This document shows, in pieces, positions 35,340-59,815 of a stretch of 64,000 nt of DNA (position 1 is its first letter; every line of letters starts with the position of its first letter). The position numbers were made by a program, and so were the translations under genes. The stretch lies in contig NZ_CP032382.1 in NCBI RefSeq assembly GCF_003589925.1, forward strand, positions 3,968,001 through 4,032,000, read 5' to 3'. Below the pieces are notes generated by a model, which saw nothing but the letters and a program-made list of their open reading frames with translations, did not search any database and was not told where the DNA came from. This DNA is from Chryseolinea soli. Lineage in GTDB: Bacteria; Bacteroidota; Bacteroidia; Cytophagales; Cyclobacteriaceae.

Positions 35340-36117
35340 TCAGGTGGACAAAGACATTCTTGTATCGATAATAGCAGGATCATTATTGCTATTTTTCTTA
35401 TGTGCTTTTATTGTTGCCTTCTCCGCCCTTTATATCCGGAAAAGAAAACAGCATAAAGCGGAAAAAGAACAACTTCAGACGCACTTTTCCCAGGTGCTGC
35501 TTCAATCTCAATTGGAAATAAAAGAGCAGACCCTCCAACGGATCGCCTTTGAACTTCACGACAATCTCGGCCAGGTGGCAAGCCTGATCAAAATAAACCT
35601 CAACACGCTTCAGACCCATGACAAAGAGAAGATGCGTCTTCAGATTGAGGATACCAAGGAACTGGTCCGTCAGCTCATAACCGATTTGAAATCACTGTCC
35701 ATAAGCCTGAACAGCGATCGGGTGGCACAGTTTGGGATTTTTCGGAGTATAGAGAACGAAGTTGAGAGGCTGAACAAAACCGGGCAATTCACGGCCACGT
35801 TGCACCAGGAAGGTAGGATTCCCGAATTGGATGCCAACACGGCGACCATCCTTTTTAGAATGACGCAGGAGATCATTAACAATATCGTAAAGCACAGTGC
35901 AGCAAAACGAATTGCCATTGCTTTGAAGGCTACCGAAAATTTGTTTACCTTGGTATATACCGATGATGGTGTTGGCTTTAATAGGGACGAACAACTGAGC
36001 GGCGGCGGCTCTGGGCTGGTGAATTTGCAAACCAGGGCCAAATTGATAAATGCGCAACTGACCATCCAAAGTAAACCTGAGGAAGGAACCACAATTTCGA
36101 TAGAATTTTCAATATAA
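35329..36117 (+). CDS. NarL-type (HisKA_3) sensor histidine kinase
   Basis: The 262-residue protein has one membrane helix (about 9-36), a short coiled coil, a HisKA_3 dimerisation region with phospho-acceptor His in RIAFELHDNLGQVASLIKIN, and an HATPase domain (ITQEIINNIVKHS-like block; DDGVGFNRDEQ; GSGLVNLQTRAKL). It lacks a periplasmic sensor domain. Its start overlaps the membrane-protein gene by 11 bases. Its stop shares one base with the regulator ATG, so the three are translationally coupled. Confidence 0.92.
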   Translation: MAFDQVDKDILVSIIAGSLLLFFLCAFIVAFSALYIRKRKQHKAEKEQLQTHFSQVLLQSQLEIKEQTLQRIAFELHDNLGQVASLIKINLNTLQTHDKEKMRLQIEDTKELVRQLITDLKSLSISLNSDRVAQFGIFRSIENEVERLNKTGQFTATLHQEGRIPELDANTATILFRMTQEIINNIVKHSAAKRIAIALKATENLFTLVYTDDGVGFNRDEQLSGGGSGLVNLQTRAKLINAQLTIQSKPEEGTTISIEFSI

Positions 36118-36791
36118 TGTTGCCTGGAGGGTTAGTCAAACTTGGGCTTGTCGATGATCATAAACTGTTTCGAAAAGGCTTGATCAGCTTGATCGAAATG
36201 GCTTGTGAAAATTGCGCCATTTTATTTGAAGCCGATAACGGCTTCGATCTTCAAAAAAAAATTGATAAAAAGAATCTGCCGGACATCGTTCTCATGGATG
36301 TCAACATGTCTGGTATGGATGGCTTTGCCAGCGTGCGTTGGCTGAAAGAAAACTATCCCGATATAAAGGTCCTTGTGGTCAGCATGATTGAAAAGGAAGA
36401 GACCATTATCCAGATGCTGAAATTGGGCGTGAAAGGTTACTTGTGCAAAGACGTTGAGCCGGAGGAGCTAAGGGAGGCGCTGAAGGCAATTGCTCACAAG
36501 GGATTTTACTATACGGATTTTATCACCGGCAAACTGGTTCATTCGCTTCAGATTGACGGACAGGATAAACGCAGAGACTCCGATCTCATGAATGAACAGG
36601 AAAAGAAATTCCTCCAATTTGCTTGCAGTGAAATGACCTATCATGAAATCGCCGACAAAATGTTCCTCAGCCCAAAAACGATCGACGGTTACCGCAATTC
36701 CCTCTTTGAAAAACTCAATGTCAAGAGCAGGGTAGGTCTTGTCATGTATGCTGTTAGGAATAGGATCGTAAAACTCGACTGGGAATTTTAG
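36117..36791 (+). CDS. NarL/LuxR-family response regulator
   Basis: The 224-residue protein has a receiver domain (about 1-130) with the phospho-acceptor Asp in DIVLMDVNMSGMDG and the conserved Lys in KGYLCKD. A C-terminal LuxR helix-turn-helix follows (about 155-215, ACSEMTYHEIADKMFLSPKTIDGY). It is the cognate partner of the kinase just upstream. Targets may include the downstream nuclease cluster, but 349 bases and terminator-like hairpins separate them. Confidence 0.92.
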   Translation: MLPGGLVKLGLVDDHKLFRKGLISLIEMACENCAILFEADNGFDLQKKIDKKNLPDIVLMDVNMSGMDGFASVRWLKENYPDIKVLVVSMIEKEETIIQMLKLGVKGYLCKDVEPEELREALKAIAHKGFYYTDFITGKLVHSLQIDGQDKRRDSDLMNEQEKKFLQFACSEMTYHEIADKMFLSPKTIDGYRNSLFEKLNVKSRVGLVMYAVRNRIVKLDWEF

Positions 36792-37105: not shown

Positions 37106-37140
37106 TATGTTGTCCTATATCCCTAAAAACCCCTACGGCT

Positions 37141-39729: not shown

Positions 39730-40680
39730 ATGGACAAAAAGAAAATTTTCATTCTTGTGCTATTGGTTGCTCCAATCCTTCATGCTTATGGGTGGGGCGA
39801 AAGGGGTCACATGCTGGTGGCCTCTGTTTCGTACACTCAGCTCAGTGAAGAGCAAAGGGCGATCGTTATGGAGTTGTTAAGTTTTCACCCGGACTACAAC
39901 GACTGGATTGAGGAGTATAAGTCGTGGCGGGATGAGGTGGAGGAAGGAAGATTTCTGATGATGAAGGCCAGCTTGTGGCCAGACGTGATTCGTGACCCGA
40001 ATAATCCTAATCACCGATTCCATCGTCCCGAATGGCACTATGTTACGTATAAACTTCATTTTCCCAATGCACATAATACCGACCTGCCTAGCGAACGCAA
40101 CGTGGTTGGAACAATCGATTTTGTGAAGTCAAAGGTTTTCAATGAAGACTTGGAACATGAGGTGAGAGCAATGTACCTGGCATGGCTCATTCATTTGGTG
40201 GGCGATATTTATCAGCCCCTCCATAACGCATCTCTTTTCAACGCTACTTACCCGGAAGGGGATAGAGGAGGAAATTTGTTTTTTGTCAGGGTAAAGGGGA
40301 AGGGAGCAAAACTACATTCCGTATGGGATCAGTCGCCGGGTAAGGGTTCAAATTTTGCGTTGATAAAATCTCAAGGCGAGAAGTTGATAGCGACTACACC
40401 AAAACCCGGTGCAGCGTTTGATCCGCGGGCCATTAGCCTTGAGAGTTTTGAATTAGCCAAGACCATCGTACATCAGAATGGGGCATTGCGAGGCTCCGAT
40501 CGAATGGAAAATGCTCCCGAGCTAACGGGTGAGTATGTGGCAAATATGAAACAGCTTGCGGGAAAGCGGTGTGCACTCGCGGGCTATAGCCTCAGCCAGG
40601 TCTTGAGCAAGCTTCCCGTCCATGCGATTCCCTTTGAGCATAACGACGGCGATGAGGATATTGCAGAATTGGAACTCTGA
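39730..40680 (+). CDS. S1/P1-family zinc nuclease, exported
   Basis: The 316-residue protein has a signal peptide expected to be cut at Gly21/Trp22. This leaves the N-terminal Trp that ligates zinc in this family (WGERGH, with His27). Further zinc-site motifs are HYVTYK with the preceding His/Trp, and HLVGDIYQPLHNA, the family's H-x3-D-x2-QPLH signature; a later HSVWD also fits. It should degrade single-stranded DNA/RNA in the periplasm or outside, possibly also removing 3' phosphates. It is 17 bases upstream of a membrane-protein gene and in one transcript with it and the second NUC nuclease. Confidence 0.92.
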   Translation: MDKKKIFILVLLVAPILHAYGWGERGHMLVASVSYTQLSEEQRAIVMELLSFHPDYNDWIEEYKSWRDEVEEGRFLMMKASLWPDVIRDPNNPNHRFHRPEWHYVTYKLHFPNAHNTDLPSERNVVGTIDFVKSKVFNEDLEHEVRAMYLAWLIHLVGDIYQPLHNASLFNATYPEGDRGGNLFFVRVKGKGAKLHSVWDQSPGKGSNFALIKSQGEKLIATTPKPGAAFDPRAISLESFELAKTIVHQNGALRGSDRMENAPELTGEYVANMKQLAGKRCALAGYSLSQVLSKLPVHAIPFEHNDGDEDIAELEL

Positions 40681-41741: not shown

Positions 41742-42653
41742 ATGAAGAAGCCGTTGCTTTTTATTGTTGCCTGGATTTGGGCGGCGATAATTCAAGTGAG
41801 TGGTCAGCAGAAGTTTTCCGAACTCTCCGCCGCTCAGAAGAAATTGTACAAGGAGCACATCGTTGAAGGCCAGCCCGATGGGGAGAAGCCGGTGTATGTC
41901 AGGCAGGGATACGTTATGCGATACAATGAAGTGTTTCGAATTCCGGATTGGGTATGTTACCATATAAAACCAGACTACTTGAATGCACCCGAACGTGAAC
42001 GACGTTTCGGATCATTTAAAACCGACCCGCAGGTGCCAGACCCAGTCACCAAAGACGAATATACAGGAAGTGGATTTGACCGGGGGCACATGGCGCCGTT
42101 CTTTGCTATGGGGGGTGATCGTGATAAAAACAATTTTTATTCCGATGCGGAGGATAGAAGGAGAGATCCATACGATGACAGCACTGCCATCCAAGCCAAC
42201 TTTATGTCAAACATCACACCACAAGACCCTGGGGCCTTTAACGGATCAGCAGGACCTTGGAACAAACTGGAGACATTCATCAGGAAGGTTTTAGTGGGGG
42301 ATAATAATATGGAGCTAAATATTTATACGGGTGCCATTGTTAGTGACCCTGACCATTTTGAGGTGGTGAAAACCGGTAAAAGAAAGAAGACAGGCATAGC
42401 CGTGCCAGATCAGTTTTATCAGATCCTTATATTCAAGGACAAAGCCACAAAGGAGTACATCACCGGGGCATTCCTTTTCCCGCATGTGCGGGATAGATCG
42501 GATCTCCCATTTGAGGACCTGCTTGACTATATGGTTCCCGTGGATGATATCGAAAAATTGACGGGTTTAAATTTTTTGAGCGAACTCAGCGACAATGCCC
42601 AGAAAAAGATCGAAAGCAAGACGAATAGGGAGTTTTGGGAGAAAATTAACTAG
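41742..42653 (+). CDS. Exported DRGH-type (NUC) DNA/RNA non-specific endonuclease
   Basis: The 303-residue protein has a signal peptide (about 1-22, IIQVSGQ). The NUC-family fold has DRGH at Asp113-His116 in GSGFDRGHMAPFFAMGG and a metal-site Asn in FMSNITPQD. The general-base His and the Asn are both present, so it should be active on DNA and RNA outside the cytoplasm. It shares the DRGH-type nuclease domain with the fusion protein at 37141 but lacks the protease. It is last in the operon that starts with the S1/P1 nuclease. Confidence 0.93.
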   Translation: MKKPLLFIVAWIWAAIIQVSGQQKFSELSAAQKKLYKEHIVEGQPDGEKPVYVRQGYVMRYNEVFRIPDWVCYHIKPDYLNAPERERRFGSFKTDPQVPDPVTKDEYTGSGFDRGHMAPFFAMGGDRDKNNFYSDAEDRRRDPYDDSTAIQANFMSNITPQDPGAFNGSAGPWNKLETFIRKVLVGDNNMELNIYTGAIVSDPDHFEVVKTGKRKKTGIAVPDQFYQILIFKDKATKEYITGAFLFPHVRDRSDLPFEDLLDYMVPVDDIEKLTGLNFLSELSDNAQKKIESKTNREFWEKIN

Positions 42654-45381: not shown

Positions 45382-47091
45382 TCATCGCCCCTTCATATCC
45401 GGCAACCGCACAATAAATTCGCTACCCTGGTATTTCTGCGAACTCACTTCGATCGTTCCCTGAAGTTTCTGCACAACTTCTTTGACGATATACAAACCAA
45501 TACCTGACCCACCGCTGCGTTCGGAGGCGCGATAGAACATATCGAAAATTTTCGGGATGAACTCCGCCTCTATACCTTCACCATTGTCGATCACACGAAG
45601 GGTGACACCATTTCCGGAATTTTCAATCCGTATTTTAATAAAGGAATCCGGTTTTGAAAGGTCACAGTACTTGATGGCATTCGAGATCAGGTTGTTGAGC
45701 ACGACATAGATCCGTTTCTTGTCGCTATAAAAAGAAAGGCCAGGATCGATCTCCGTTTCTTTCCGGATGCCCTTGGCGGGTTCCATGTGGTGGAATAAAT
45801 CGTAGATATTGTCTAGCAAGGACTGAAAGTCGATCTTCTCTATTTCGATCTCCACGCGGTTGTTGCGCGAGTAGCTCACGATGTCGTAAATGAAACTGTC
45901 GAGCTTGATAAGGCTTCGCTCTTGCATGGTCAACAGTTTTTTAATGGAAGACACGTCGTCTTCCAGCCGGGCCACTTCAATCAGACCCAACAGCGAAGTG
46001 ATGGGAGCACGCAGGTCGTGCGAGGCGCTATAGACAAAGCGATCCAGTTCCTGATTTATTTTTACAAGCTCTTCGTTTTTTTGCGTGATGGATTCCTCGG
46101 CGAGTTTTCGTTTTGTGATGTCGGTAATGGATCCCACCATGCGGTAGGGCTTGCCGTGTTTGTCCCGCACGGCTTCGCCCTGGGAATGAAACCAGCGGTA
46201 GTCGCCACCCTTAACGCGCAGTCTGAATTCAACATCATAGCGATTCTCCGGCGAGATAAAGTGCTTGTCGAGCGACTCTTTAATCAGGAGAAGGTCTTCC
46301 GGGTGAATGGCGTTATTGAAGGTGGCGGAGTTATAAGGAAATTCAGTGGGTGCATATCCCAGCATTTCTTTGAGGCCCCGGCCGTAGTAGACCTCGTTGG
46401 TCTTTATGTCCCAGTCCCAAAGTCCTGCGGCCGAACCTCGGACGGCCAACTGGTACCGCTCTTCGCTTTCCTTGATCGAGGCAAGGGAGTTGTGAAGGAA
46501 TAAAGACATCAGCAAAAGTGCGACGCAGAGACCACCCCAAGCATTTAGCGGGGAGTATTCCGGGCCAAGCTGCACGGGCATCAGGTTGTTGAACTCCAGG
46601 AACGCAACGATGCCCAAGAAAACAATCGTCATCAAGGCAAGGATGAGCGCCGAACGACCCCCTAGAAAACTTCCCATAAACATGATGACGACTACAAACA
46701 CTACGGGAACCTGACTCCGAAGCCCGCCAAAGAAAAGAGTTGCAAATGCAATGATGCACCACATGAAGATGGTCAAAGACCAGCCCGCGAGCTTGATTTT
46801 TCCGTGCCGTAGAACAACCACGAAGACAATAAGGGCAGCGTAAACCAACCCATAGAATGCGACGGTTACGCTTAACGTATTCTTGGGTTCAAACAGGGCG
46901 GCGACAAAGCCAATCGTATTGGTGGCGACCATGGAGAGAACAATCTTCGCCATGAGTTTAGCCTTTCTTGAAACTTCCTCGCTAGTCACCTCCGGGGGAA
47001 CAATCCAGTCGTATAGTTTTTTTAAAATACCCGACAGTGTATTTCTAGAAGACACTCCTAATCTCCTGTCCAGGTTCTCCGAGTCGCTCAT
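45382..47091 (-). CDS. PAS-domain sensor histidine kinase with six-helix membrane module
   Basis: The 569-residue protein has six membrane helices between about residues 48 and 200. A PAS_3 domain follows (about 210-330, LAVRGSAAGLWDWDIKTNEVYYG) with a PAC tail (GKPYRMVGSITDITKRK). Next come HisKA with phospho-acceptor His358 (YSASHDLRAPI) and HATPase (ISNAIKYCDLSK; DNGEGIEAEFIPKIFDMFYR; GSGIGLYIVKEVVQ). No receiver gene is adjacent. It is divergent from the MoxR operon, 282 bases away, so its signal could bear on that system, although this is only positional. Confidence 0.93.
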   Translation of the reverse strand: MSDSENLDRRLGVSSRNTLSGILKKLYDWIVPPEVTSEEVSRKAKLMAKIVLSMVATNTIGFVAALFEPKNTLSVTVAFYGLVYAALIVFVVVLRHGKIKLAGWSLTIFMWCIIAFATLFFGGLRSQVPVVFVVVIMFMGSFLGGRSALILALMTIVFLGIVAFLEFNNLMPVQLGPEYSPLNAWGGLCVALLLMSLFLHNSLASIKESEERYQLAVRGSAAGLWDWDIKTNEVYYGRGLKEMLGYAPTEFPYNSATFNNAIHPEDLLLIKESLDKHFISPENRYDVEFRLRVKGGDYRWFHSQGEAVRDKHGKPYRMVGSITDITKRKLAEESITQKNEELVKINQELDRFVYSASHDLRAPITSLLGLIEVARLEDDVSSIKKLLTMQERSLIKLDSFIYDIVSYSRNNRVEIEIEKIDFQSLLDNIYDLFHHMEPAKGIRKETEIDPGLSFYSDKKRIYVVLNNLISNAIKYCDLSKPDSFIKIRIENSGNGVTLRVIDNGEGIEAEFIPKIFDMFYRASERSGGSGIGLYIVKEVVQKLQGTIEVSSQKYQGSEFIVRLPDMKGR

Positions 47092-47302
47092 TTTTTGTCA
47101 ATAGGTTGTATTCTTGGGGCTCCAGCCACGTGCAATGGGGCTGTAGAATGTAAAATACTGATTTTTTGGCCCGTTTCATCGATTTTCGATGAAGGAATCG
47201 CCGGCAAAATAGCGGATTATAAGCGGACATCCGGCCGGCATAAAACGATTGCGAACAGACCTTCCCTTCTATCTTAGAGATGGCGCTATGGATGGGGACG
47301 TC

Positions 47303-47310
47303 TATATTTT
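47303..47310 (+). promoter_or_regulatory. Candidate -7 box of the MoxR operon
   Basis: TATATTTT matches TAnnTTTG in 7 of 8 bases, about 64 bases before the first ATG at 47374. No matching TTTG lies at the usual distance upstream, so support is weak. Confidence 0.3.
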
Positions 47311-47373
47311 CAAGTAAGTTTTTACCACCAATTCACTTGTCCCGGTAGTTTGTGCGTTGGATATTGCGAAGCC

Positions 47374-48030
47374 ATGCAGAGCCCACCCGATAGCTGTTTC
47401 CTGAAAATGATTCAGACCCTTCGCCGACAGGAAGGCGTCGTATTGTACAACGACATTCTCGAGATCTCATCAGCCGAAGCGGAGGATGTCGTGGCCTTTT
47501 TGAAGGAAGAATACGAACGCGAATCCCTCGACCATCCCCACACAACGCCATCGTTCCATCCCCATGCTGCGCGATGGGCCGCCCAAACGGTTTATGTTGC
47601 TGCGCAATTGATCTTATACAGGAAGCACGAAGAAAAGGATGTCCCGTCACTCTTGCCTACTTTTTCTTTCACACCCGATGCTGCGGCTATTTTGTCGGCC
47701 GATCTATGTCTGCGTTTCTTGCCGGATATGATCGTGCAATTGAAAATAATCGATACCAACGACCCGCTCATTCCGTTGCTGGAATCGATCCTGAAGCAAT
47801 GGCATTTCTCCGCCGTGCGTCATAACCTCGCCGTCGATCAGCCGGACTTTGCGCCGGTGGTGGCCGATGTGTGTCTGCATCAATTGTATTGTCAACGGAT
47901 TGTTGACCACCGGAAACTGCTTCTGGCGCAACATCCCGTTTTCAGAGAGGCCATTGCCGCCCAGATGGGTATGTATGGACCAGAATTTTGGAATGAATTT
48001 AGAACCGATACTTTATCCTCGCTTGCATGA
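47374..48030 (+). CDS. Helical protein, first gene of a MoxR-vWA-propeller operon
   Basis: The ATG at 47374 gives 218 residues; a later ATG at 47407 is also possible. The protein is cytoplasmic, mostly helical, with blocks SFHPHAARWAAQTVYVAAQLILYRK-like and DLCLRFLPDMIVQL, then HPVFREAIAAQMGMYG near the end. I do not recognise it on its own, but similar small helical proteins accompany MoxR ATPases in the bpX ternary systems. Its stop overlaps the MoxR start (ATGA), so it is translated together with the ATPase. I cannot say which bpX family it belongs to. Confidence 0.75.
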   Translation: MQSPPDSCFLKMIQTLRRQEGVVLYNDILEISSAEAEDVVAFLKEEYERESLDHPHTTPSFHPHAARWAAQTVYVAAQLILYRKHEEKDVPSLLPTFSFTPDAAAILSADLCLRFLPDMIVQLKIIDTNDPLIPLLESILKQWHFSAVRHNLAVDQPDFAPVVADVCLHQLYCQRIVDHRKLLLAQHPVFREAIAAQMGMYGPEFWNEFRTDTLSSLA

Positions 48031-49154
48031 ATGCCATCGATAAGCTTAACCATGTATTACAATTTGTAAAAGATTCCTTTGTTGGAAAGAATGAGATCGT
48101 CGACTTGCTGGGCATTAGCCTCATTGCCAAAGAGAATGCGTTCTTGCTAGGTCCCCCGGGCACGGCCAAAAGTGCCATCATCCGTGAGCTCTCCGGTTGC
48201 ATTGATGGAGGAAAAAATTTTGAATACCTGCTCACACGCTTCACCGAGCCCAACGAGATCTTTGGTCCGTTCGACATCCGAAAGCTGAAAGAGGGTGACC
48301 TGGTCACGAACACGGACGGCATGATGCCCGAAGCCTCTATGGTCTTCCTGGACGAGATCTTCAACGCTAACAGCGCCATTCTCAATAGCCTGCTCATGGC
48401 CCTCAACGAGCGGATCTTCCGCCGGGGCAAGGAAACGCGCAAGCTGCCGGCCCTCATGTTTGTGGGTGCCAGCAACCAGCTCCCCGAAGACGAAGCGCTG
48501 AACGCCTTGCTCGACCGCTTCCTCGTTCGCATCCGCTGCGACTATGTGGACACCGACCTCTTGGAGGAAGTATTGCTCGCCGGCTGGAAACTGGAAAATA
48601 GATCAACCGAAAAACCGGCCATCACACCCAATGATATTATCGAGCTACAGCAGCAAAGCAAAAAAGTAGACCTGACGCCCATACGCAAACAGTTTGTCGA
48701 CCTGGTGCACAATCTCAGGAACACGGGAATAAAGGTGTCTGACCGGCGTGCAGTGAAGATCCAAAACCTGCTGGCGGCCAGCGCGCTCATCTGCAACCGG
48801 ACCGAAGCCATCCCTTCCGACTTGTGGGTGCTCAAGTACATTTGGGATAGCGAAGAACAGATCGAGATCCTGGCGGGGATCATCGATTCCATCATCGAAA
48901 AGGATACTTCCTCGCAAGCGCACCCCCAAGCCCGCTACAACAAGATGCCCAATGCAGAAGAACTCATGAAAGAAGTGCAGCTGTTAGCCAGCCGCTGGGA
49001 CGGCGGAAATTTGTCGTTCGAGGAACAGAACGTGGTGAAGGATAAACTGCGCTATGTGCAAACGCGGTGCAATTGGATAAAGAAAAACGAGCACAAGCAA
49101 CACATCGAGACGGAAATCGAACAGCTATGGCACCGGATGCTGCAAACAGCATAA
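48027..49154 (+). CDS. MoxR-family AAA+ ATPase
   Basis: The 375-residue protein has Walker A GPPGTAKSA (residues 42-50) and Walker B MVFLDEIF (Asp109/Glu110). Sensor and arginine-finger regions follow (FVGASNQLPEDEALNALLDRF). A C-terminal lid holds LTPIRKQFVDLVHNLRN. This is the MoxR/RavA branch, which remodels partner proteins, usually together with a vWA-domain protein. Here the vWA partner is two genes downstream. The start overlaps the first gene by 4 bases, and the end overlaps the third gene by 28. Confidence 0.93.
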   Translation: MNAIDKLNHVLQFVKDSFVGKNEIVDLLGISLIAKENAFLLGPPGTAKSAIIRELSGCIDGGKNFEYLLTRFTEPNEIFGPFDIRKLKEGDLVTNTDGMMPEASMVFLDEIFNANSAILNSLLMALNERIFRRGKETRKLPALMFVGASNQLPEDEALNALLDRFLVRIRCDYVDTDLLEEVLLAGWKLENRSTEKPAITPNDIIELQQQSKKVDLTPIRKQFVDLVHNLRNTGIKVSDRRAVKIQNLLAASALICNRTEAIPSDLWVLKYIWDSEEQIEILAGIIDSIIEKDTSSQAHPQARYNKMPNAEELMKEVQLLASRWDGGNLSFEEQNVVKDKLRYVQTRCNWIKKNEHKQHIETEIEQLWHRMLQTA

Positions 49155-49873
49155 GATATTATCTGGCGATCGCCGCCGGGAACAAAGACGACCTCGCCCG
49201 CATCCGTCAATGGAACAACCTGAAGGTTGGCTTTGATGAGCATACGATCTGGGTGAGGGACTTTGACTATGCCCAGATCCATTCGGTGGAGGTGAAGTCG
49301 ATCCCGTTCAAGGATCTGTTTTATGAACGTGACAACAAACTTTTTTTCCTCGACAGCCGCCTGCCCGAAAGGTCTGCTCCTTCGTTATTGTGGACGGCCA
49401 TCGACAGGGCTTTGCCCGTGAAGCTCCCTGCGTTCAACCACAATTACTTCGGCATCCATGAAAAAATGGACATCCGTTTTGTGCCCCGCGAAACCGAAGC
49501 CGAAACTGCCGCGATGCTGGTAACGCTCGACGTGCTGGAGCACTACTTGCAGACGGCGCCCGCCGTCAGGCTCCAAAAGATACGATGGGCAATCCTCGAC
49601 AACACAAAAGCTTTGTTACTGGGGAAACCGTTGTTGCCCATTCCAGGCGAAACCTTCTGGCAACGAAAAGATTTCCTGATCCCCACGGGCCAGGACCTCG
49701 AACTTTTTCTGTTGGCCGACACGTTGCAGAAAAAGATCAACCCGGGGAGAGACCGCTGGGTGTTGTGGAGCAAAGACAGCTCCTATGTGAGCATTCTCAA
49801 GGAGAGTTTGATGCCACTGTCGCGGAGTGCTTATCGGTTAACGCGTCAATCTCTTTCGCTTCCCAATGGATAG
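49127..49873 (+). CDS. Cytoplasmic protein of the MoxR-vWA-propeller operon (bpX-like)
   Basis: I place the start at the ATG at 49127 (MAPDAANSIRYYLAIAAGNKD), giving 248 residues and a 28-base overlap with the MoxR gene in another frame. The first 90 residues are a mixed alpha/beta unit with VGFDEHTIWVRDFDYAQIHS. A helical part follows (LEHYLQTAPAVRLQKIRWAIL), then a closing block with LEL FLLADTLQKKI and WVLWSKDSSYVSI. I recognise the layout from bpX accessory proteins of MoxR-vWA-propeller systems but cannot name the family. It overlaps the vWA gene by 8 bases. Confidence 0.78.
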   Translation: MAPDAANSIRYYLAIAAGNKDDLARIRQWNNLKVGFDEHTIWVRDFDYAQIHSVEVKSIPFKDLFYERDNKLFFLDSRLPERSAPSLLWTAIDRALPVKLPAFNHNYFGIHEKMDIRFVPRETEAETAAMLVTLDVLEHYLQTAPAVRLQKIRWAILDNTKALLLGKPLLPIPGETFWQRKDFLIPTGQDLELFLLADTLQKKINPGRDRWVLWSKDSSYVSILKESLMPLSRSAYRLTRQSLSLPNG

Positions 49874-52403
49874 CTATAATTACTTTAGATCGTACAAGAA
49901 TTACTTCTGGCAATGGGAGGACAATGGGGAAGTTATTGCTATTCCGGATGAAGCCACGATAGCCTACAAAAACCAAGTGGTCGAAATTTTAGAGCGACTT
50001 GCTCCCCAAGGCCTGCCTCCCTTTGGATCGCTTCTTCTGGCCATCATCGCCACTAACGCTAACGCCGATGCGGCGTTGGATGCCGTGTATGTAAGAATAA
50101 CCCGTTTCATGGAAACGACAGACGATGTTGTGCTGGCAAAAGCCATGATCTTTCTAAAGCGGTTGGCGACGATGCCGCAGGAATACAAACAAGGCGATAA
50201 AAGAGCGCTGCTCCTGCAAGTGCTTTTCAAAGGCTGTCACAATATCAATTCTATTAAAGATTCAAAAGCTGCGTATGAGTTTCTGAAATCCGGAAGCCTA
50301 CCGTTGGATAGTCCGGTGGAAAGAGTCGCGGGAGATACAAGAGAATTAAAAATAATCGCCTTGATGGACTCCCGTTTTAATTCGGTTGATTTGATCATCA
50401 AGGCGATCGGTGGTCTCCCGGATAAAGATCAAATTGAAATTGATTTTGATCATACACCCGGCGAAAATTCGTCAGCCCAGCCCGACCTCGACCTGATCGA
50501 TCAACTCATAGCCAACTCGACGACCTTTACCGTCGGTTCGCTTGTGCGTTGGCTTTGGGGCGGCCTCAACATTCCCGTGCACAGCGCATTGCCCAGCGCG
50601 CAACCGCTGGGGGGTATATCGGACCTTACCAACAAGGGTGATTTCGACAAGCTTCTGGTTTCCGAGTTTGCTAACGACGATCTTTTCTTTATGTCGCGGC
50701 TGGCCAACAACGAAGCGCTCTACATCCACCGCGAAATACCACCGGCCCACAACGACCTGCACCGCATCATCCTGATCGATGCCTCCATGAAATGCTGGGG
50801 CACACCCAAAGCCATGGCGTTTGCCACCCTGTTGGCCATTGCCAAACATCCGAAGACCGACATCGACTGCCAGGCGTTTGTGCTAGGGGCAGAAAAGTAC
50901 TACCCCGTATCGTTCGAAAACATGCATACCATCATTGATGCCATGGACATCGTTGCCGGCACGTTGCATTGCAGCGGTGGTCTGGCGGCGTTTTTCAACG
51001 ACCATGGGAAAGATAAAAACAAAGAGGTGTTCTTTATCACCGAGGCGTCCACCCTAAAGCAAGGGGCGTTGCTGAAGACCATGACCGAAAACCATCAGCA
51101 TATCCACTACCAGGTGCTCACCGATGTAGAGGGAAACATCGATGTGTATAAACGGCATAAAAATAGCAAGAAGCATCTTCAGCACATCAAGCTTCCACTG
51201 GATACCCTTTGGAAGAAGGAAAAGCCAAAGAAGGTATCGCGCTCAGCCATCAAGGAGACAAAATCGACCGTTGGGATCTATCCTATTTTGATTCGCGATG
51301 CGGGCCATGCAAAAAAAGTACTCGTTGCGCCCAACGGACAGATCTTTCAGGTAAGCGGCAATAAGGCCATCTTCCGGTTCTACGATAAAACAAAGGAGAA
51401 ACATGCCGTGGGCTGGGACCTGGTCTTTGAAAATCTACCTTTCAACACCAACATTGCCGAAGTCGGCCTTTCAGAAAAAGGCGAGTATGTGTTCCTCCTG
51501 TTCAATGCCAACACGCGCGAAGTTTTATTGGTAAACATTTCCACTGGCGAAAAGCAGCGCCTTACCTTTGATCAATGGCGATCCAACGGCACTCATTCGT
51601 TTATCTTTGAGACTGGCAAGTTTGTCCACTATCATCCCGGCGGTGCCTGGACAATAACCCTCGACGGGAAAGTAGACGCAATAACAACCTGGGAAATAGC
51701 CAAATTTAAAGCCCGTGCCGATGAGCTTGCGGCAGTAGCCAACAAATACACCTTTAATACGGGGGTCTTCAAAAATATCCACCAGGTGTTTATTAATTCG
51801 GCTGGTCAGCTGATTTTCAACAAACATGCGCTAATGTTGGAGGCTACCGATAAAAGCATCCGATTTTTACAATCGTCCGATCGGGCTGTAAAGATCAATG
51901 CGCGGAGGATTAGCGATGTTGCGTTTGAGTTTCCCGACGGTAGTCTGGTCGAAGTAAATCGTTTAGGCCTGATAACCCTTAAAAGCAGCACCATCGCCAT
52001 ACCGGCGGTTTACGTTCCTTCTTTGATCGATTCACCTCTAGGCGTGGCAACTTTATACCGTTTCGCAGGCAACGAATTCTACTACAAAGAACCCCTTTTT
52101 GAAATTGTGCTTCAAAATGCAGGTCCTCAACTACTGGCCACGATAAAAACGATACGGGCGAATTCCGAGATGAGCTTGAAGGAGGTCAAGACGCTGGCCG
52201 AGAATACGCCGGCCGTATTGCCTGTATATTTTAAGGAACAAAGCGCCGTGGAAATAAAAGAAAAACTGGAAGAGATTCAAGCGGAAGTAGAGGTGAGGCG
52301 AATCCATCATCTTGAATCGAAGATGGAGAAGATCAGCACCACCGACTTCTTTGGACAACACATTGCTGCTTTTATAAAAAATATCCTCGATCATGGAGCT
52401 TAA
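49866..52403 (+). CDS. vWA-like plus beta-propeller-like protein of the MoxR operon
   Basis: An 845-residue cytoplasmic protein. The N-terminal 200 residues are helical (DVVLAKAMIFLKRLATMPQEY). A vWA-like domain lies at about 255-440, introduced by GDFDKLLVSEFANDDLFF and NNEALYIHREIPP. Its metal site is degenerate: IIDAS-type LIDASMKCWG (Asp305, Ser307) lacks the second Ser of DxSxS. From about 465 to 760 come short repeated strands of a propeller (KVLVAPNGQIFQVSGNKAIF; GEYVFLLFNANTREVLLVN; HSFIFETGKFVHYHPGGAW). A coiled coil (about 780-825) ends the protein. This is the defining component of the ternary system. It overlaps the next gene by 11 bases. Confidence 0.85.
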   Translation: MDSYNYFRSYKNYFWQWEDNGEVIAIPDEATIAYKNQVVEILERLAPQGLPPFGSLLLAIIATNANADAALDAVYVRITRFMETTDDVVLAKAMIFLKRLATMPQEYKQGDKRALLLQVLFKGCHNINSIKDSKAAYEFLKSGSLPLDSPVERVAGDTRELKIIALMDSRFNSVDLIIKAIGGLPDKDQIEIDFDHTPGENSSAQPDLDLIDQLIANSTTFTVGSLVRWLWGGLNIPVHSALPSAQPLGGISDLTNKGDFDKLLVSEFANDDLFFMSRLANNEALYIHREIPPAHNDLHRIILIDASMKCWGTPKAMAFATLLAIAKHPKTDIDCQAFVLGAEKYYPVSFENMHTIIDAMDIVAGTLHCSGGLAAFFNDHGKDKNKEVFFITEASTLKQGALLKTMTENHQHIHYQVLTDVEGNIDVYKRHKNSKKHLQHIKLPLDTLWKKEKPKKVSRSAIKETKSTVGIYPILIRDAGHAKKVLVAPNGQIFQVSGNKAIFRFYDKTKEKHAVGWDLVFENLPFNTNIAEVGLSEKGEYVFLLFNANTREVLLVNISTGEKQRLTFDQWRSNGTHSFIFETGKFVHYHPGGAWTITLDGKVDAITTWEIAKFKARADELAAVANKYTFNTGVFKNIHQVFINSAGQLIFNKHALMLEATDKSIRFLQSSDRAVKINARRISDVAFEFPDGSLVEVNRLGLITLKSSTIAIPAVYVPSLIDSPLGVATLYRFAGNEFYYKEPLFEIVLQNAGPQLLATIKTIRANSEMSLKEVKTLAENTPAVLPVYFKEQSAVEIKEKLEEIQAEVEVRRIHHLESKMEKISTTDFFGQHIAAFIKNILDHGA

Positions 52404-54117
52404 GATCATCCCCTACGATAAGAACACGTATCCTTTAAGCGCGATACTCATCCGGGGCGCTTCGGCGATCACATGGGTGAAAGCGCTTCAGGCCTTGCAA
52501 TTGGTGCTGACGAATATCCAGGTTTATCCCATTCCAAACGTGACGCCGAACGTGTTGTGGGGGTGCCTGGCCGTAACCAATGGTCCGCTCGACAAGACGC
52601 AGGCAGGCCGTCATGAGCTTTGTCAAGTCGTGACGCCGAATCTTTTTATCCCTGAGAAATCGGCGCTCTTTCCCGCGATGACCGAGGGAGAGATGGAGAA
52701 AATGTTTTCTTCTGGCAGGCACATTATCCATCCTGATTTCGGATTGGTCGAACTAACCGAAGAAGTGGATTTCAATACGCTGGTTGCCGGCTTTACGCAA
52801 CAGGAAGTCATCGTGACGAAGCCAGCGCCATCAACGTTCATACCGCAGACGATCAGAAGTTTCCACATACAAACGCCACCGCCGGAAGAGGTATTGAAGA
52901 ATTTGACCGAGAATATTTTTCCGAAGAAGGAGAACATGCAGAATAAGCCGCTGTCACTTTTTGAAAAACTGAAGCTGCAATTTTACAGGACGCTCTTTAC
53001 AAAGACCAAAGGTGAGGGTAATACACCCGCCAGCGTTAAGCCGACCAGTTGGGGCTCCCGGCTTGCGGGCATCATGGAAAAACTTTTCCCCTCAAAAAAT
53101 AGGTTTGACAAGCTGTTGATGGACTTTGAGGATCTTGAAAAACGAAATCAGAAACACGTGGAGCGGCTCATGGACATGTTGAAGAATGATCCCGAGGAAG
53201 CCTTGAAATATGCCATTCCATTAGACGAGCACGGCGCGGGCCGGGGAAGCCAGGAGCCGGCCAGGTTTGATTTTGCCCGTCGCTGGTTTGATTTTTCGCT
53301 CACGGGGGATCATCACAGATCGGGAGGCGGTGGAACGGTAAGCATCGGCGACCACTTTCATCTCTTGCAAAAGCAATACCGGGAAACGGCCGAGGCACTG
53401 GTAAAAAAGAATGAACATCAGAAAGCGGCCTTTGTCTATTTGAAGCTGCTGAAGAATCCACTCCAGGCCGCCGAGACGCTGGAGGCCGGCAAGTACTATG
53501 CAGAGGCGGCGACGATCTTTTTAAAACAATGCAACAATAAACAGAGGGCGGCCCAGTGTTACGAGAAAGGCAACATGACCATGGATGCCATCGAGCTCTA
53601 TAAAGAGTTGTCTGACCACGAAAAGGTAGGCGACCTGTACATGACCGTATCCAACCGCACGGAGGCGTTCGTGCACTATCAAAAAGTGGCTGACAACTTT
53701 GTGAAGCTGGACCAATATGTGAAAGCTTCGTTGTTTTATAAGCATAAAATGGACGATCCCACTGCGGGCCAATCCATGTTGCGAAAGGGATGGGACAGCA
53801 ATAAGGACGCGGTCAACTGCCTGAATAATTATTTCGCCAACATCGACGACGTAGAGCAATTGGAAAAAGAGATCAAGGCAGTAAGCGTTGAAAGTGTGAC
53901 CGACCAAAACCGGGAATCTTTTCTCACGGTGCTTCAGCACGAGTACAAAAAACAAAAGCAACTGCGCGAGCCATTGACGGAACTGGCTTACGAGCTAGTA
54001 GCGACACACATAGCGATCAATCCTTCCATTGTGTCGCGGCTAAATGAGTTCAACCCGGAAAACAAAGAATTGTTTAAGGACACGCTGCGGTTTAAGTTGA
54101 ACGCGAAAAAGACCTGA
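52393..54117 (+). CDS. bpX-like protein with TPR region, last gene of the MoxR operon
   Basis: The 574-residue protein begins with a conserved-looking domain (1-130; LSAILIRGASAITWVKALQA, then HIIHPDFGLVELTEE), followed by a basic linker. A TPR-like solenoid occupies about 335-490, with repeated pairs such as YRETAEALVKKNEHQKAAFVYLKL, AAETLEAGKYYAEAATIFLK and AAQCYEKGNMTMDAIELYKE. A C-terminal helical part closes it. The N-terminal unit resembles the bpX6-type domain of MoxR-vWA-propeller systems, by memory. A bridging or substrate-recruiting role is inferred from the solenoid. It has no signal peptide. Confidence 0.78.
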   Translation: MELKIIPYDKNTYPLSAILIRGASAITWVKALQALQLVLTNIQVYPIPNVTPNVLWGCLAVTNGPLDKTQAGRHELCQVVTPNLFIPEKSALFPAMTEGEMEKMFSSGRHIIHPDFGLVELTEEVDFNTLVAGFTQQEVIVTKPAPSTFIPQTIRSFHIQTPPPEEVLKNLTENIFPKKENMQNKPLSLFEKLKLQFYRTLFTKTKGEGNTPASVKPTSWGSRLAGIMEKLFPSKNRFDKLLMDFEDLEKRNQKHVERLMDMLKNDPEEALKYAIPLDEHGAGRGSQEPARFDFARRWFDFSLTGDHHRSGGGGTVSIGDHFHLLQKQYRETAEALVKKNEHQKAAFVYLKLLKNPLQAAETLEAGKYYAEAATIFLKQCNNKQRAAQCYEKGNMTMDAIELYKELSDHEKVGDLYMTVSNRTEAFVHYQKVADNFVKLDQYVKASLFYKHKMDDPTAGQSMLRKGWDSNKDAVNCLNNYFANIDDVEQLEKEIKAVSVESVTDQNRESFLTVLQHEYKKQKQLREPLTELAYELVATHIAINPSIVSRLNEFNPENKELFKDTLRFKLNAKKT

Positions 54118-54293
54118 ATTTTGCCGCTTGCGATAAGGGGTTCTTGACCGGCGACAACCGCCATGCGAATCGACGGATCTTTGGACAAAAGATCTTCCCC
54201 AAAATGCGGTAGTGATGTAACATTAACAATTACTTCATCCGTTTAACCGCGGTTTATAGCTACCTTCCGTGACCAAATAAAAACCCAATATTT

Positions 54294-55399: not shown

Positions 55400-56743
55400 T
55401 CACTCTCTCCCTTCCAATATCTTCCCCGTCTCATTCCCTTCCGAGGTACCATCCGGTTTATTCAGCATGTAATCAAAAACTTCCAATTCACTAAATATCA
55501 CAATAGCACCAACTTTTAAATCCGGAATTTCATAAGGATCATTCTGCAGAACGCCCTCCATTTGCTCGCCCTTCCAACGCGTCACCTCCACCCACATCCA
55601 TTCGTGCCCACCATCGGGTGTTTCAAACGGCGCCTTTACCATGATCGAGTATCCGGGATCCAGACCCTTATTGAACAACGCCCTGAGCTCGGGTAGCCGT
55701 TTCTTTGCATTTTCACTAGCCGCTAGCAATTCATCATCATGCTGGGCGACCGTGTACGATTCTTGCATGCCAAATAAATCGGCGACGAGTTGATTGGCTT
55801 CTTCCTGTGGCGAGGAGTATTTGGGATTTTCAAAGGCGATCAGCAGTTGGATAAATGGGTTATCGCCTTCCTCGGGAGATGCCCATTTCAATTTTACGGA
55901 AGTAGCCAATTGGGCATCGGTTTTTATGTCCGATAGAAGCAAATCCCGCATCTTTTTGTTTTTGATTTTTTTTAGCTCGACATGCAATGTTGAATCCGCA
56001 TTTATGAAAGGGTTCTCCACGAGCGTCTGTGTAACGGCATTGATAAGGTTTCCATACGAAATTTGATCCGAACAAGGGAAATTCCTGATCGAGATTTCGG
56101 GCAAACAAAAATTGCTCATGCCCAACGTCACCGCGCGACAAAATTCGCCTTCGCGATAGGTGTGTATGGTCACATGGCCAGTAATGTCAATCGTTTGATC
56201 CTGGAAAGCATCTACACGACGTGTCTTCCAAGTGGTGGGACTATAAAATTCGATCGAGACGAGATCTGCGATGACTACCTTTTTTTCCTTGGTTAGCGCA
56301 TAAATGAAATCTGCAATCTGTTTTTGTTTCTCAACGACATCGTTGCTTGTTCCAAAGAAAACGAGGTCCAGGTTTCTATCGGAAAGGGAAAATGCTTGGA
56401 GTTCCTTTTCAGTCAATTGGAAAAACGAAGAGGGCCAACTTTCAATGTCGGGTTTCATAAATTCCTCATCGCCCTTTTGGATCCGCGTTAGATAAAACCC
56501 GTCTTTCAAAATGGACAAAGAGTCTGCTGACGGTGCCTCTGTCCTCGGAAAAGATTTTAAAGACTGTCGCGCTTGGTCTGAAAGGGTGGCATCGGTAATC
56601 GACTCGTTCTCCAACAGGTAGATCGCCAAGTGCGTCACAAAGGACGGGCTGAGAACGCTAGTTTGGGTTGCAGCTTTTTTTTCATTTTTCGAAGGGAACG
56701 AACATCCAAAAAGAAGGATGAGGAAAGCAAAACGATATCTCAC
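55400..56743 (-). CDS. Lipoprotein with C-terminal DUF2314 domain
   Basis: The 447-residue protein has a lipoprotein signal (lipobox LLFGC, Cys14). Residues 30-330 form a soluble alpha/beta region I do not recognise. The last 90 residues contain GYSIMVKAPFETPDGGHEWM, then WKGEQMEGVLQNDPYEI and LKVGAIVIFSELEVFDYML, matching the DUF2314 pattern of bacterial stress- or defence-linked proteins of unknown activity. It is transcribed against its neighbours and lies between two direct copies of the structured repeat, which start about 35 bases beyond its stop and 60 bases beyond its start. This suggests it was inserted or rearranged together with the repeat. Confidence 0.78.
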   Translation of the reverse strand: MRYRFAFLILLFGCSFPSKNEKKAATQTSVLSPSFVTHLAIYLLENESITDATLSDQARQSLKSFPRTEAPSADSLSILKDGFYLTRIQKGDEEFMKPDIESWPSSFFQLTEKELQAFSLSDRNLDLVFFGTSNDVVEKQKQIADFIYALTKEKKVVIADLVSIEFYSPTTWKTRRVDAFQDQTIDITGHVTIHTYREGEFCRAVTLGMSNFCLPEISIRNFPCSDQISYGNLINAVTQTLVENPFINADSTLHVELKKIKNKKMRDLLLSDIKTDAQLATSVKLKWASPEEGDNPFIQLLIAFENPKYSSPQEEANQLVADLFGMQESYTVAQHDDELLAASENAKKRLPELRALFNKGLDPGYSIMVKAPFETPDGGHEWMWVEVTRWKGEQMEGVLQNDPYEIPDLKVGAIVIFSELEVFDYMLNKPDGTSEGNETGKILEGRE

Positions 56744-57003: not shown

Positions 57004-57049
57004 GACCAATGTTTTTTCCCCATCTATCTAACGGTGCAACCCGAAGTAT

Positions 57050-57057
57050 TATCTTTG
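57050..57057 (+). promoter_or_regulatory. Candidate -7 box directly before nuoA
   Basis: TATCTTTG is an exact TAnnTTTG box, only 5 bases before the nuoA ATG at 57063. If used, the nuo mRNA would be leaderless or nearly so. No TTTG is found 18-20 bases upstream. Confidence 0.4.
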
Positions 57058-57062
57058 ATCTC

Positions 57063-57572
57063 ATGGACCACCCCCTCTATCTATCAGCCTTTGGCGAAAT
57101 CCTCCTCTACATCCTGGCGGGTGTCCTTTTCATCCTTGTCACCCTGTTGATTTCCAAGGCCATACGCCCCCACCGCCCCAACCCCGAAAAGCTTTCCACC
57201 TACGAAAGCGGGGAGGAGCCCGTGAGTTCCGCCTGGTCACAGTTCAACCTGCGCTTCTATGTTGTGGCGCTCATCTTCCTGCTGTTCGAAGTGGAGATCG
57301 TTTTTCTCTTCCCCTGGTCCACCATTTTCGCCAACAAAAAGCTGCAGGCGGCAACAAACGGCGCCTGGGGATGGTTCTCCATGATAGAGATGTTGGTCTT
57401 CATCGGTGTGCTGGCGCTGGGATTGGCCTATGCCTGGGTGAACGGTCATCTGGATTGGATCAAGCCGCATCCCGAACCAACCGACTTCAAGTCGCAGGTG
57501 CCGAAAAGTTTGTACGACAACATCAACGAAAAATATAAAACGCATCAGAAGCCTGAACAAGGCAACGGATAA
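57063..57572 (+). CDS. nuoA: NADH-quinone oxidoreductase subunit A
   Basis: From the ATG at 57063 ([20 protein letters not shown]) the protein has 169 residues. This start gives the normal N-terminus, with the first helix at about 9-30. Three membrane helices are present. The conserved loop reads [43 protein letters not shown], here given in parts: the ESGEEP segment and [13 protein letters not shown] are the NuoA signature. The C-terminal tail is longer and more charged than in E. coli, as in other Bacteroidota. It is the first gene of the nuoABCD block, 8 bases before nuoB. Confidence 0.95.
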
Positions 57573-57580
57573 CGAACGCT

Positions 57581-58117
57581 ATGGGTGGACTACTGGATCA
57601 ACGCTTTGAACACGGCGGCGTCATCGTGACCCGCCTCGACGACCTGCTCAACTGGGCGCGGCTGTCGTCCATGTTTCCGATGACGTTCGGGCTGGCCTGT
57701 TGTGCCATCGAGTTCATGAGCACGGGCACCACCGTCTACGACATGGACCGCTTTGGCATGGCGCCCCGTTCCAGCCCACGCCAGGCCGACGTCATGATCA
57801 TCGCCGGCACGGTCACCTTCAAAATGGCCGACCGCATCAAGCGTCTCTACGAACAAATGGCCGAGCCGCGCTATGTCATCTCCATGGGTTCGTGTGCCAA
57901 CTGTGGTGGGCCGTACTGGCAGCATGGCTATCACGTGGTGAAGGGCGTGGACCGCATCATTCCGGTGGATGTTTATGTGCCCGGTTGCCCGCCGCGTCCC
58001 GAAGCCCTCATCGGGGGTTTTCTCAAACTCCAGGAAAAGATCCGGAACGAAAGCATGATGGCGCCCACGGCCATCGAAAAACTATTGAAGAAAGAAGAAA
58101 CACATGCCAGCCTTTGA
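57581..58117 (+). CDS. nuoB: NADH-quinone oxidoreductase subunit B
   Basis: The 178-residue protein carries the ligands of the N2 iron-sulfur cluster: the tandem Cys40-Cys41 ([11 protein letters not shown]), Cys105 (MGSCANCGG) and Cys136 ([11 protein letters not shown]). [17 protein letters not shown] is the usual quinone-cavity segment. It is the peripheral arm subunit nearest the membrane, next to NuoD. It overlaps nuoC by 14 bases. Confidence 0.97.
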
Positions 58118-58589
58118 GTCGATACTAACCCTCGTGCAAAATGCCTGCACGCACACCCCGCCGGTGGTGGACGAGAATGCGTCACCCAAAGCCATCGTGG
58201 TGGCGGCGGAAGATCTTGTGGCGGTGGCGCAGCAACTGTTCGCGTCACCCGAAACCTACTTCGACATGCTCTCCTGCGTGACGGGCATCGACAACGGGCC
58301 GGCCGCGAATACCATGGAGGTGGCGTATAATCTCTACTCGATACCGTTTCACACCCACCTGATGTTGAAAGTAAAGGTGTCGCGCGAAAAGCCTGAAGTG
58401 CCATCCCTGAGCAATCTTTGGAAAACGGCTACCTGGCAGGAGCGCGAAATATTCGATATGTACGGCATCCATTTCACCGGTCATCCCGACCTGCGAAGGA
58501 TCTTGATGCCCGAAGACTGGGAAGGCCACCCCTTGCGCAAAGACTACACGCACCAGGGCTATTACCGCGACATCAAAGTAGCCTACTAG
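58104..58589 (+). CDS. nuoC: NADH-quinone oxidoreductase subunit C
   Basis: The 161-residue protein has the 30-kDa subunit signature [20 protein letters not shown] followed by [18 protein letters not shown]. The N-terminal domain is of normal size, and it is not fused to NuoD as it is in E. coli. It sits 5 bases upstream of nuoD. Confidence 0.95.
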
Positions 58590-58594
58590 CCGCC

Positions 58595-59815
58595 ATGCCT
58601 ACCGACCACATCCAATACAAATCGCACCCCGACAACCTCACGCGTTCGGTTCCTTATAAGTTCGACGCAGCACAACTGCGTTCAGAAGAAATGATCGTGA
58701 ACCTGGGGCCGCAACATCCCTCGACCCACGGCGTGCTCCGCTTGGAAGTGTTGATGGAAGGGGAGATCGTAAAAGAGGTCGTTCCGCACATCGGCTACCT
58801 GCACCGTTGCTTCGAGAAGCACGCAGAGAATTTGCCCTACAACCAGGTCATCCCCTTTGTTGACCGTCTCGACTATGTGGCTTCCATGAACAGCGAGCAT
58901 GCCTATGCCATGGGCGTGGAGCGCATGTTGGGCATCGAGCATCAGATACCCAAACGCGTGGAGTATGTGCGCGTGATGGTGGCCGAGCTGAACCGCATCG
59001 CGTCACACTTCATCGCCATCGGCACCTATGGCATGGACATCGGTGCGTTCACACCGTTCTTCTGGCTCATGCGCGACCGCGAACATATTTTGCGCATGCT
59101 CGAGTGGGCTTCGGGTGCCCGTTTACTCTACAACTATATTTGGATTGGGGGATTGTTCTACGATTTGCCCATTGGCTTCGAAGAACGCTGCCAGCAATTC
59201 ATCGCCTACATCCGTCCCAAGCTAGTCGAGTTGGACACCGTGCTATTGCAAAACAAGATCTTCGTTCAACGCACCGCCAATGTGGGCGTGCTTCCACTCG
59301 ACTTAGCCATCAACGGTGGCGTCACCGGCCCGATGCTACGTGCCTCGGGTCTTCGTTTCGATCTCCGTCGCGTTGACGGCTACTCGGTTTACCCGGAATT
59401 GGATTTTGATGTGCCGATCGGCGAAGGCAAGATGGGCACCGTGGGCGATTGCTGGGATCGCACCAACGTGCGCGTGCAGGAAATTCACGAATCGCTGAAG
59501 ATCCTGGAGCAATGTGTGATCAAGCTCACCGGCGAACACAAGCGCACGCGTGACTTCGACCCGCAAGCGTTGGTGCCTAAAAAGATCCGTCCCAAAGCAC
59601 AAGACCTCTATGTGCGGTCGGAGATCCCCAAAGGCGAGCTGGGATTTTTCTTTCGCGCCGATGGCCGGAACGACATCGCCTTGCGGTGTAAGTGCCGTTC
59701 ATGCAGCTTTGTGAACCTGAGCATCCTTCCCGAAATTGCCAAAGGAATTTTAATAGCCGACCTCATCGCCATCATCGGCTCCATTGATGTGGTGATGGGG
59801 GAAGTGGACCGATAA
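58595..59815 (+). CDS. nuoD: NADH-quinone oxidoreductase subunit D
   Basis: The ATG at 58595 gives 406 residues; the longer open frame upstream overlaps nuoC and is not plausible. Family motifs are NLGPQHPSTHGVLRL (quinone-site His), HIGYLHRCFEKHAE and YVASMNSEHAYAMGVERM. The C-terminal CRSCSFVNLSILPEIAKG is the usual last helix. It is the last nuo gene of this block. The next gene 11 bases on is the NAD(P)H-hydrate repair enzyme, not nuoE. Confidence 0.97.
   Translation: MPTDHIQYKSHPDNLTRSVPYKFDAAQLRSEEMIVNLGPQHPSTHGVLRLEVLMEGEIVKEVVPHIGYLHRCFEKHAENLPYNQVIPFVDRLDYVASMNSEHAYAMGVERMLGIEHQIPKRVEYVRVMVAELNRIASHFIAIGTYGMDIGAFTPFFWLMRDREHILRMLEWASGARLLYNYIWIGGLFYDLPIGFEERCQQFIAYIRPKLVELDTVLLQNKIFVQRTANVGVLPLDLAINGGVTGPMLRASGLRFDLRRVDGYSVYPELDFDVPIGEGKMGTVGDCWDRTNVRVQEIHESLKILEQCVIKLTGEHKRTRDFDPQALVPKKIRPKAQDLYVRSEIPKGELGFFFRADGRNDIALRCKCRSCSFVNLSILPEIAKGILIADLIAIIGSIDVVMGEVDR

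Follow-up and report, generated by a model that had tools for sequence, protein, structure and literature searches.

We analysed a 64,000-nucleotide stretch of the Chryseolinea soli genome (contig NZ_CP032382.1, positions 3,968,001 to 4,032,000; hereafter the window), which carries a five-gene operon that a previous sequence-only reading had assigned to the MoxR-vWA-beta-propeller (bpX) ternary systems. A re-check of the open reading frames (ORFs) returned exactly the coordinates and overlaps given in that reading (4, 28, 8 and 11 bases, in gene order), with all five genes on the + strand and the 28-base overlap joining the MoxR and bpX2 genes. An alternative, longer GTG start for the bpX2 ORF lies at 49067. 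The genes, with their Pfam matches, are as follows.

47374..48030, + strand: bpX4 gene, 218 aa (PF19920, E 1.4e-70)
48027..49154, + strand: bpMoxR AAA+ ATPase gene, 375 aa, P-loop GPPGTAKS (PF20030, E 1.1e-101)
49127..49873, + strand: bpX2 gene, 248 aa, ATG start (PF19918, E 7.4e-83)
49866..52403, + strand: vWA-propeller gene, 845 aa (bpX0 5.6e-30, bpX1 1.3e-15, Ribosomal_L12 5.1e-11; structure model)
52393..54117, + strand: bpX3-TPR gene, 574 aa (PF19919, 4.7e-47)

Family membership and domain structure of the products

All five products match Pfam families that define these systems, and bpX0, bpX1, bpX2, bpX3, bpX4 and bpMoxR all exceed their curated cut-offs (E 1e-15 to 1e-101), as does Ribosomal_L12, which bears out the earlier family call. 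Of 80 loci, 78 have the same five genes in a single order and on a single strand, and contig ends truncate the remaining pair, L047 and L071; this locus set comprises the best 80 of 147 stretches that encode a bpX2 relative, many of them from two genera. In 51 of the 80, the MoxR and bpX2 genes overlap by exactly 28 bases. Because every product scores well above its Pfam cut-off and the gene order is kept in 78 loci, the operon is far beyond chance, and it is a complete member of the bpX ternary systems, a membership as certain as sequence allows. No effector is recognisable within the operon, as the sequence-only reading had already stated, and the passages of Kaur et al. (2020, eLife, PMC7159879) on propeller ternary systems term these enigmatic, with no conventional effector nameable.

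The window MoxR protein scores 338.6 bits against PF20030 (cut-off 27). Four other MoxR-like genes of the same genome also pass this cut-off, at 32 to 60 bits, so the cut-off alone is insufficient and the bpMoxR call rests on the score together with the P-loop. The Walker A motif noted previously is present as GPPGTAKS, and it recurs in 90 of 91 MoxR rows; a GXXXTAKS variant is described as common in the propeller ternary subsystem in the part of Kaur et al. concerned (PMC7159879). The best sequence match among solved structures is RavA (1.5e-45), and the protein reaches 187.9 bits against the NCBIfam ATPase RavA model, under its curated cut-off of 681. Homology between bpX2 and bpX3 was considered and rejected (hhalign probability 0.2), and a search of one literature library on bpX2 yielded no relevant title among the matches listed.

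Within the 845-aa protein, the following domains were assigned from Pfam matches, alignment and a predicted structure.

49953..50399, + strand: bpX0 domain, residues 30-178, helical (Pfam and structure model)
50760..51191, + strand: divergent vWA-like domain, residues 299-442, with a MIDAS-like DxSxK at 305-309 (model and alignment)
51282..52070, + strand: beta-propeller-like strands, residues 473-735, with bpX1 at 686-742 (Pfam and model)
52098..52298, + strand: ribosomal L7/L12 C-terminal domain, residues 745-811 (Pfam Ribosomal_L12 and fold match)

The earlier description of this protein as vWA plus propeller-like is supported. It finds no match to the Pfam vWA models; region 299-442 is Rossmann-like in the predicted structure, and the LIDASMKCWG motif reported before lies at residues 303-312. 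Among 149 non-redundant rows of 200, D305 and W311-G312 are invariant (149/149 each) and K or R occupies position 309 in 143. A beta-propeller is predicted C-terminal to the vWA-like domain, in a model whose predicted TM-score of 0.49 does not allow the blades (about four expected) to be counted safely.

The sequence-only reading overlooked the L7/L12 C-terminal domain, which lies toward the C terminus of this protein. Insertion of L12 into propeller systems is already published in Kaur et al. (PMC7159879), where the domain is called ‘multimerizing’. For L7/L12 itself, the parts consulted of two papers (PMC12548414, PMC4592705) have the N-terminal domain dimerising and the C-terminal domain binding IF2, EF-Tu, EF-G and RF3. 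The domain starts at residue 733-754 in 8 loci and at residue 689-704 in 22, and these two insertion places bear out the ‘different points’ reported in PMC7159879. It is found in 30 of the 80 loci and in 107 of 120 proteins (query included), the latter count having been made with a profile built from those same 107, and its presence changes at least 7 times on a tree of MoxR plus bpX2 (80 rows). Conservation was compared in rows that carry the domain at the window's position (113 of 200, 90 after removal of near-copies). Mean entropy is 1.92 bits at positions taken as factor contacts, 2.04 bits at positions taken as core, and 3.01 bits at the remaining surface (contacts versus remaining surface, p 4.6e-5; p 2.6e-4 without G79 and L80). 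K70 and K84 are the best-kept lysines (~70%); at R73 most rows have K, and half of them retain K65. Because the match is to the C-terminal domain and its translation-factor face is largely kept, the conservation pattern favours, without proving, docking to translational GTPases over the published multimerisation reading.

The bpX3 protein, called TPR-like by the sequence-only reading, is predicted to form a TPR-type superhelix at residues 321-574, which gives this system a third component with TPRs; C-terminal to the bpX3 domain, the model shows no region rich in beta strands. By crude hydropathy, no membrane segment is predicted in the window protein, nor in 118 of 119 close homologues. The same measure finds a segment in 66 of the 79 loci with a bpX3 gene and none in 13, with at least three changes on the tree. 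An amphipathic helix in place of the missing segment was considered and rejected, given that the best 18-residue moment does not exceed that of shuffled sequences in 13 of 14 rows (p at least 0.17), the sole exception being L053 (p 0.01). In loci of the Chryseobacterium group, the bpX3 gene is followed by a second gene with TPRs.

Distribution of the operon and genes linked to it

The operon is accessory, as its patchy distribution and an empty site in a congener (G002) demonstrate. Apart from the window genome, a single relative among 58 has bpX2, as do 9 of 394 other genomes of the phylum; none of the five other members of its genus does. The feature that defines the empty site is the following.

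47102..54189, no strand assigned: stretch missing from G002, in whose place lie 346 bases without a BLAST match to the window

The orthologous flanks in G002, the nuo stretch included, retain 82% and 90% nucleotide identity, which makes the two genomes a natural with/without pair inside one genus. The simplest reading is gain by the window lineage, although G002 may instead have lost the operon. No exact direct repeat of 8 or more bases was found between the insertion ends (47051-47160 versus 54131-54260). A Hymenobacter plasmid carries a MoxR gene whose product is 55% identical, amid genes of fitting sizes of which only MoxR was matched. Two loci may be misbinned contigs: in L024, titled Williamsia (Actinomycetota), a neighbour bears a Por secretion tail, and in L047, titled Bacteroides and the nearest tree row to the window, there is a MacB/FtsX neighbour. 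The window genome itself holds a large MacB/FtsX-type permease family, with 118 matches to a 793-aa neighbour at 1e-60.

Between bpX4 and MoxR, inserts of more than 650 bases occur in 14 loci, all from the Chryseobacterium group. In 13 of these, the insert encodes a rare polytopic membrane protein of ~237 aa, which in some is joined by a DUF4919 partner, with up to two tandem pairs (for example L055:5967-8253, L056:5155-8171, L060:8166-8888 and L069:1018-2333). With one such membrane protein as query, 11 proteins were recovered within the sensitivity of a word-based search. This polytopic membrane protein/DUF4919 cassette is a candidate variable effector.

Profile searches of the flanks (up to 10 kb per side) placed SWIM, WGR and/or RT_XIII genes beside the operon in 10 of the 80 loci (L019, L028, L033, L034, L035, L036, L040, L041, L048 and L049), in several arrangements. 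L019, which reaches a contig end, has only the reverse transcriptase (RT) gene, 185 bases upstream of bpX4 and on the same strand, and in L033, L035 and L040 the SWIM gene has no RT gene with it. The large gene paired with SWIM encodes WGR-DUF6493-DUF7824-DUF7825 in L033 and L040. The L040 locus (Flavobacterium rakeshii) is a single-strand run of DUF6493, SWIM, bpX4, MoxR, bpX2, vWA and bpX3 genes with gaps of at most 88 bases, those of the WGR-DUF6493/SWIM lead-in to bpX4 being 5 and 88 bases. Scanned with PADLOC, a set of 107 ORFs (out of 124 picked) that neighbour the operon in 25 loci gave matches to the RT_XIII, SWIM_XIII and WGR_XIII models, whereas 92 control ORFs from 20 random regions (one of which gave none) matched no _XIII model, Septu-like and mad2-like matches being present among them.

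Co-occurrence was evaluated in 395 phylum genomes, the window's own included (10 with and 385 without bpX2), treated as one set across searches. The SWIM_XIII model matches in 6/10 genomes with bpX2 versus 8/385 without (p 1.2e-7), DUF6493 in 5/10 versus 6/385 (p 1.4e-6), and RT_XIII in 2/10 versus 3/385 at better than 1e-150 (p 0.006) or 3/10 versus 18/385 at better than 1e-60; the union of these partner genes gives p 3e-6 with the window genome excluded, all these p values overstating independence because the genomes are related. Among 150 Flavobacterium genomes, DUF6493 occurs in 3 of 10 with bpX2 versus 7 of 140 without (p 0.02), and all three genomes that have both carry them within 15 kb. 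The stretches fetched around the RT_XIII units of G281, G367 and G344 hold no bpX gene, so RT_XIII units can stand alone. Neither the window nor its genome has an RT_XIII match at 1e-60. The window genome does have a DUF6493-DUF7824-DUF7825 gene, without a WGR match, that overlaps a SWIM gene by one base (C1:3080216-3084231, equivalent to L147:9217-13232), the SWIM protein falling just below the Pfam SWIM cut-off.

An ERI1-like 3'-5' exonuclease gene (PDB 1w0h, 1.3e-16) lies in the flanks of 23 of the 80 loci, upstream in 19 from Flavobacteriaceae and downstream in 4 from the Chryseobacterium group. It was found in 13 of 13 Flavobacterium genomes with bpX2 versus 4 of 24 without (p 6.7e-7), the latter having been picked by hand rather than at random (the 18 first listed plus 6 DUF6493 carriers); among genomes of at least 5 Mb, the contrast is 10/10 versus 3/7 (p 0.015). 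The gene is present in 4 of the 5 bpX2-bearing genomes of group g62, was not found in G363 or G007 at 1e-20, and perhaps belongs to a syntenic hot spot. In L028 (6278-7971) and comparable loci of Flavobacterium, it is directly preceded by a gene of 365 aa that appears SPFH/slipin-like by eye.

These linked genes are candidate nucleic-acid partners beside the operons of relatives. WGR, SWIM and DUF6493 have no occurrence in the main text of Kaur et al. (PMC7159879), and the terms XIII, WGR, SWIM and MoxR are all absent from one RT survey. Searches of the same literature library on combinations of MoxR, RavA, WGR, SWIM, retron and DUF6493 gave, as relevant among the matches listed, the Kaur paper and its hypermutated-sensor follow-up, whose passages treat VMAP and STAND systems.

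A proposed role and its alternatives

We propose that the operon encodes an accessory bpX ternary machine that acts conditionally, most likely against invading elements; we give this reading a probability of about 0.55. In such a machine, bpMoxR would form an ATP-driven ring with the divergent vWA-propeller protein as its co-chaperone, and the ring would remodel or release a client assembled with bpX2 and bpX4 on a bpX3-TPR scaffold. The best candidate partners that relatives suggest act on nucleic acids and are encoded next to the operon or in trans: the WGR/DUF6493-SWIM pair, the RT_XIII-WGR-SWIM unit and the ERI1-like exonuclease; in the window genome, the DUF6493-SWIM pair could be available in trans. 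A conflict role for propeller ternary systems is a published inference in the relevant passages of Kaur et al. (PMC7159879), and the patchiness, empty site, variable membrane cassettes and gene linkages agree with it. We also entertain, more tentatively, a fuller scheme in which MoxR-vWA-bpX is the ATP-driven switch half, WGR/DUF6493-SWIM (or RT_XIII-WGR-SWIM) and the ERI1-like exonuclease form the sensor/effector half for nucleic acids, in one run or in trans, and L12 tethers the members that bear it to translational GTPases.

Several observations weigh against a defensive machine with these partners. General defence enrichment is not demonstrated in the flanks, with matches in at least 6 of 107 ORFs (25 of 42 families listed) versus about 3 of 92 in the control, and PADLOC-DB matches to the five products themselves are weak and partial only. 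Searches for bpX2 relatives confirmed none in IMG/VR and met none among phage records, and no phage challenge or other experiment on the propeller ternary subsystem was met in the literature. Four of the 10 bpX2-bearing phylum genomes are without DUF6493, SWIM or full-length RT_XIII. In the window genome, the DUF6493-SWIM pair lies 0.93 Mb from the operon, and the ERI1-like gene was not found at 1e-20. The relatedness of the genomes behind the co-occurrence p values counts on this side as well.

It is about an even chance that the WGR-SWIM, RT_XIII and ERI1-like genes are mere neighbours in shared variable islands that do no joint work with the bpX operon. Most DUF6493 carriers are without bpX2 (6/11 in the phylum set and 7/10 in Flavobacterium), many of the neighbouring genes are encoded on the other strand and at positions that vary, and the exonuclease, which often follows another conserved gene, also occurs in the 4 of 24 Flavobacterium genomes noted above; the RT_XIII units fetched without a bpX gene fit this as well. 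However, a chance neighbourhood accounts less readily for the same-strand L040 run with its short gaps, the RT gene 185 bases upstream of bpX4 in L019, the spacing of at most 15 kb in all three Flavobacterium genomes with bpX2 and DUF6493, and the exonuclease in every one of the 13 bpX2-bearing Flavobacterium genomes. A quite different role, in which the machine would, like RavA-ViaA, act as a chaperone in the maturation of an ordinary complex of the cell such as respiratory complex I, seems unlikely to us. This role draws on RavA as the best solved match, on the lack of an effector in the operon, on nuo-type genes at 57009-59815, ~3 kb downstream, and on the title of a paper by which RavA and ViaA interact with NADH:ubiquinone oxidoreductase I (PMC3893208). 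Yet 57 of 58 relatives are without bpX2, and the nuo neighbourhood lends little support because G002 keeps these flanks without the operon; the flank families most frequent in the Chryseobacterium group occur only in L054-L098, although genera do share some families.

We likewise regard as improbable a translation-directed regulator, a machine that would dock translational GTPases through L12 and turn translation or factor loading on and off. The fold match, the low entropy at contact positions, the well-kept K70 and K84 and the factors bound by the L7/L12 C-terminal domain (PMC12548414 and PMC4592705, as cited above) would suit it. Against this stand the two different places of insertion and the variation at R73 and K65. 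Part of the entropy signal, measured at presumed contact positions, may reflect fold constraint. L12 is unlikely to be the core function, given its presence in only 30 of the 80 loci and the 7 or more changes that the tree requires. The linked nucleic-acid genes of relatives, the composite run of L040 and the largely preserved L12 factor face provide three concrete, testable hypotheses on these enigmatic systems.

Other window genes and comparison with known systems

Elsewhere in the window, a gene at 37123-39312 encodes a trypsin-like peptidase fused to a NucA-type endonuclease, and the consulted text of Kaur et al. (PMC7159879) gives a peptidase with a NucA-type endonuclease as the core pairing of System 3. 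It is followed by genes for an S1/P1 nuclease (39730-40677) and a second Endonuclease_NS protein (41742-42650). A histidine kinase and a LuxR-type response regulator (35329-36791) stand just before the peptidase-nuclease gene and adjoin the region of the window with low GC content (about 42% at 30-36 kb). On the - strand at 55403-56743, a 447-aa DUF2314-domain protein is encoded between a SnoaL-like gene and the nuo genes.

The yehI-yehL-yehM-yehP-yehQ cluster of E. coli assembles similar types of parts (DUF4132, MoxR, DUF5682, vWA and SWIM proteins). Homology to it was examined by BLASTP and profile comparison and was not convincing for either the window's proteins or the SWIM and WGR proteins of L028 (best E 0.016). 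The RT_XIII-WGR-SWIM genes, recognised by the retron-type XIII models of PADLOC, adjoin bpX operons in some relatives but not in the window. RavA-ViaA of E. coli resembles the window system in joining a MoxR AAA+ protein to a vWA partner, with the RavA sequence match already given, and differs in that the window MoxR falls under the RavA curated cut-off. RavA-ViaA is also not known to have bpX subunits, a propeller or an L12 domain. In the ternary systems of Kaur et al. (PMC7159879), as far as the consulted parts describe them, the third component has a membrane segment and, typically, a propeller, whereas that of the window has TPRs, no predicted membrane segment and no propeller apparent in the model. 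Those systems share with the one in the window all five products, the GXXXTAKS P-loop, the divergent vWA domain followed by propeller-like strands, the L12 insert after the vWA domain (in a Bacteroidetes-type member) and the want of a conventional effector.

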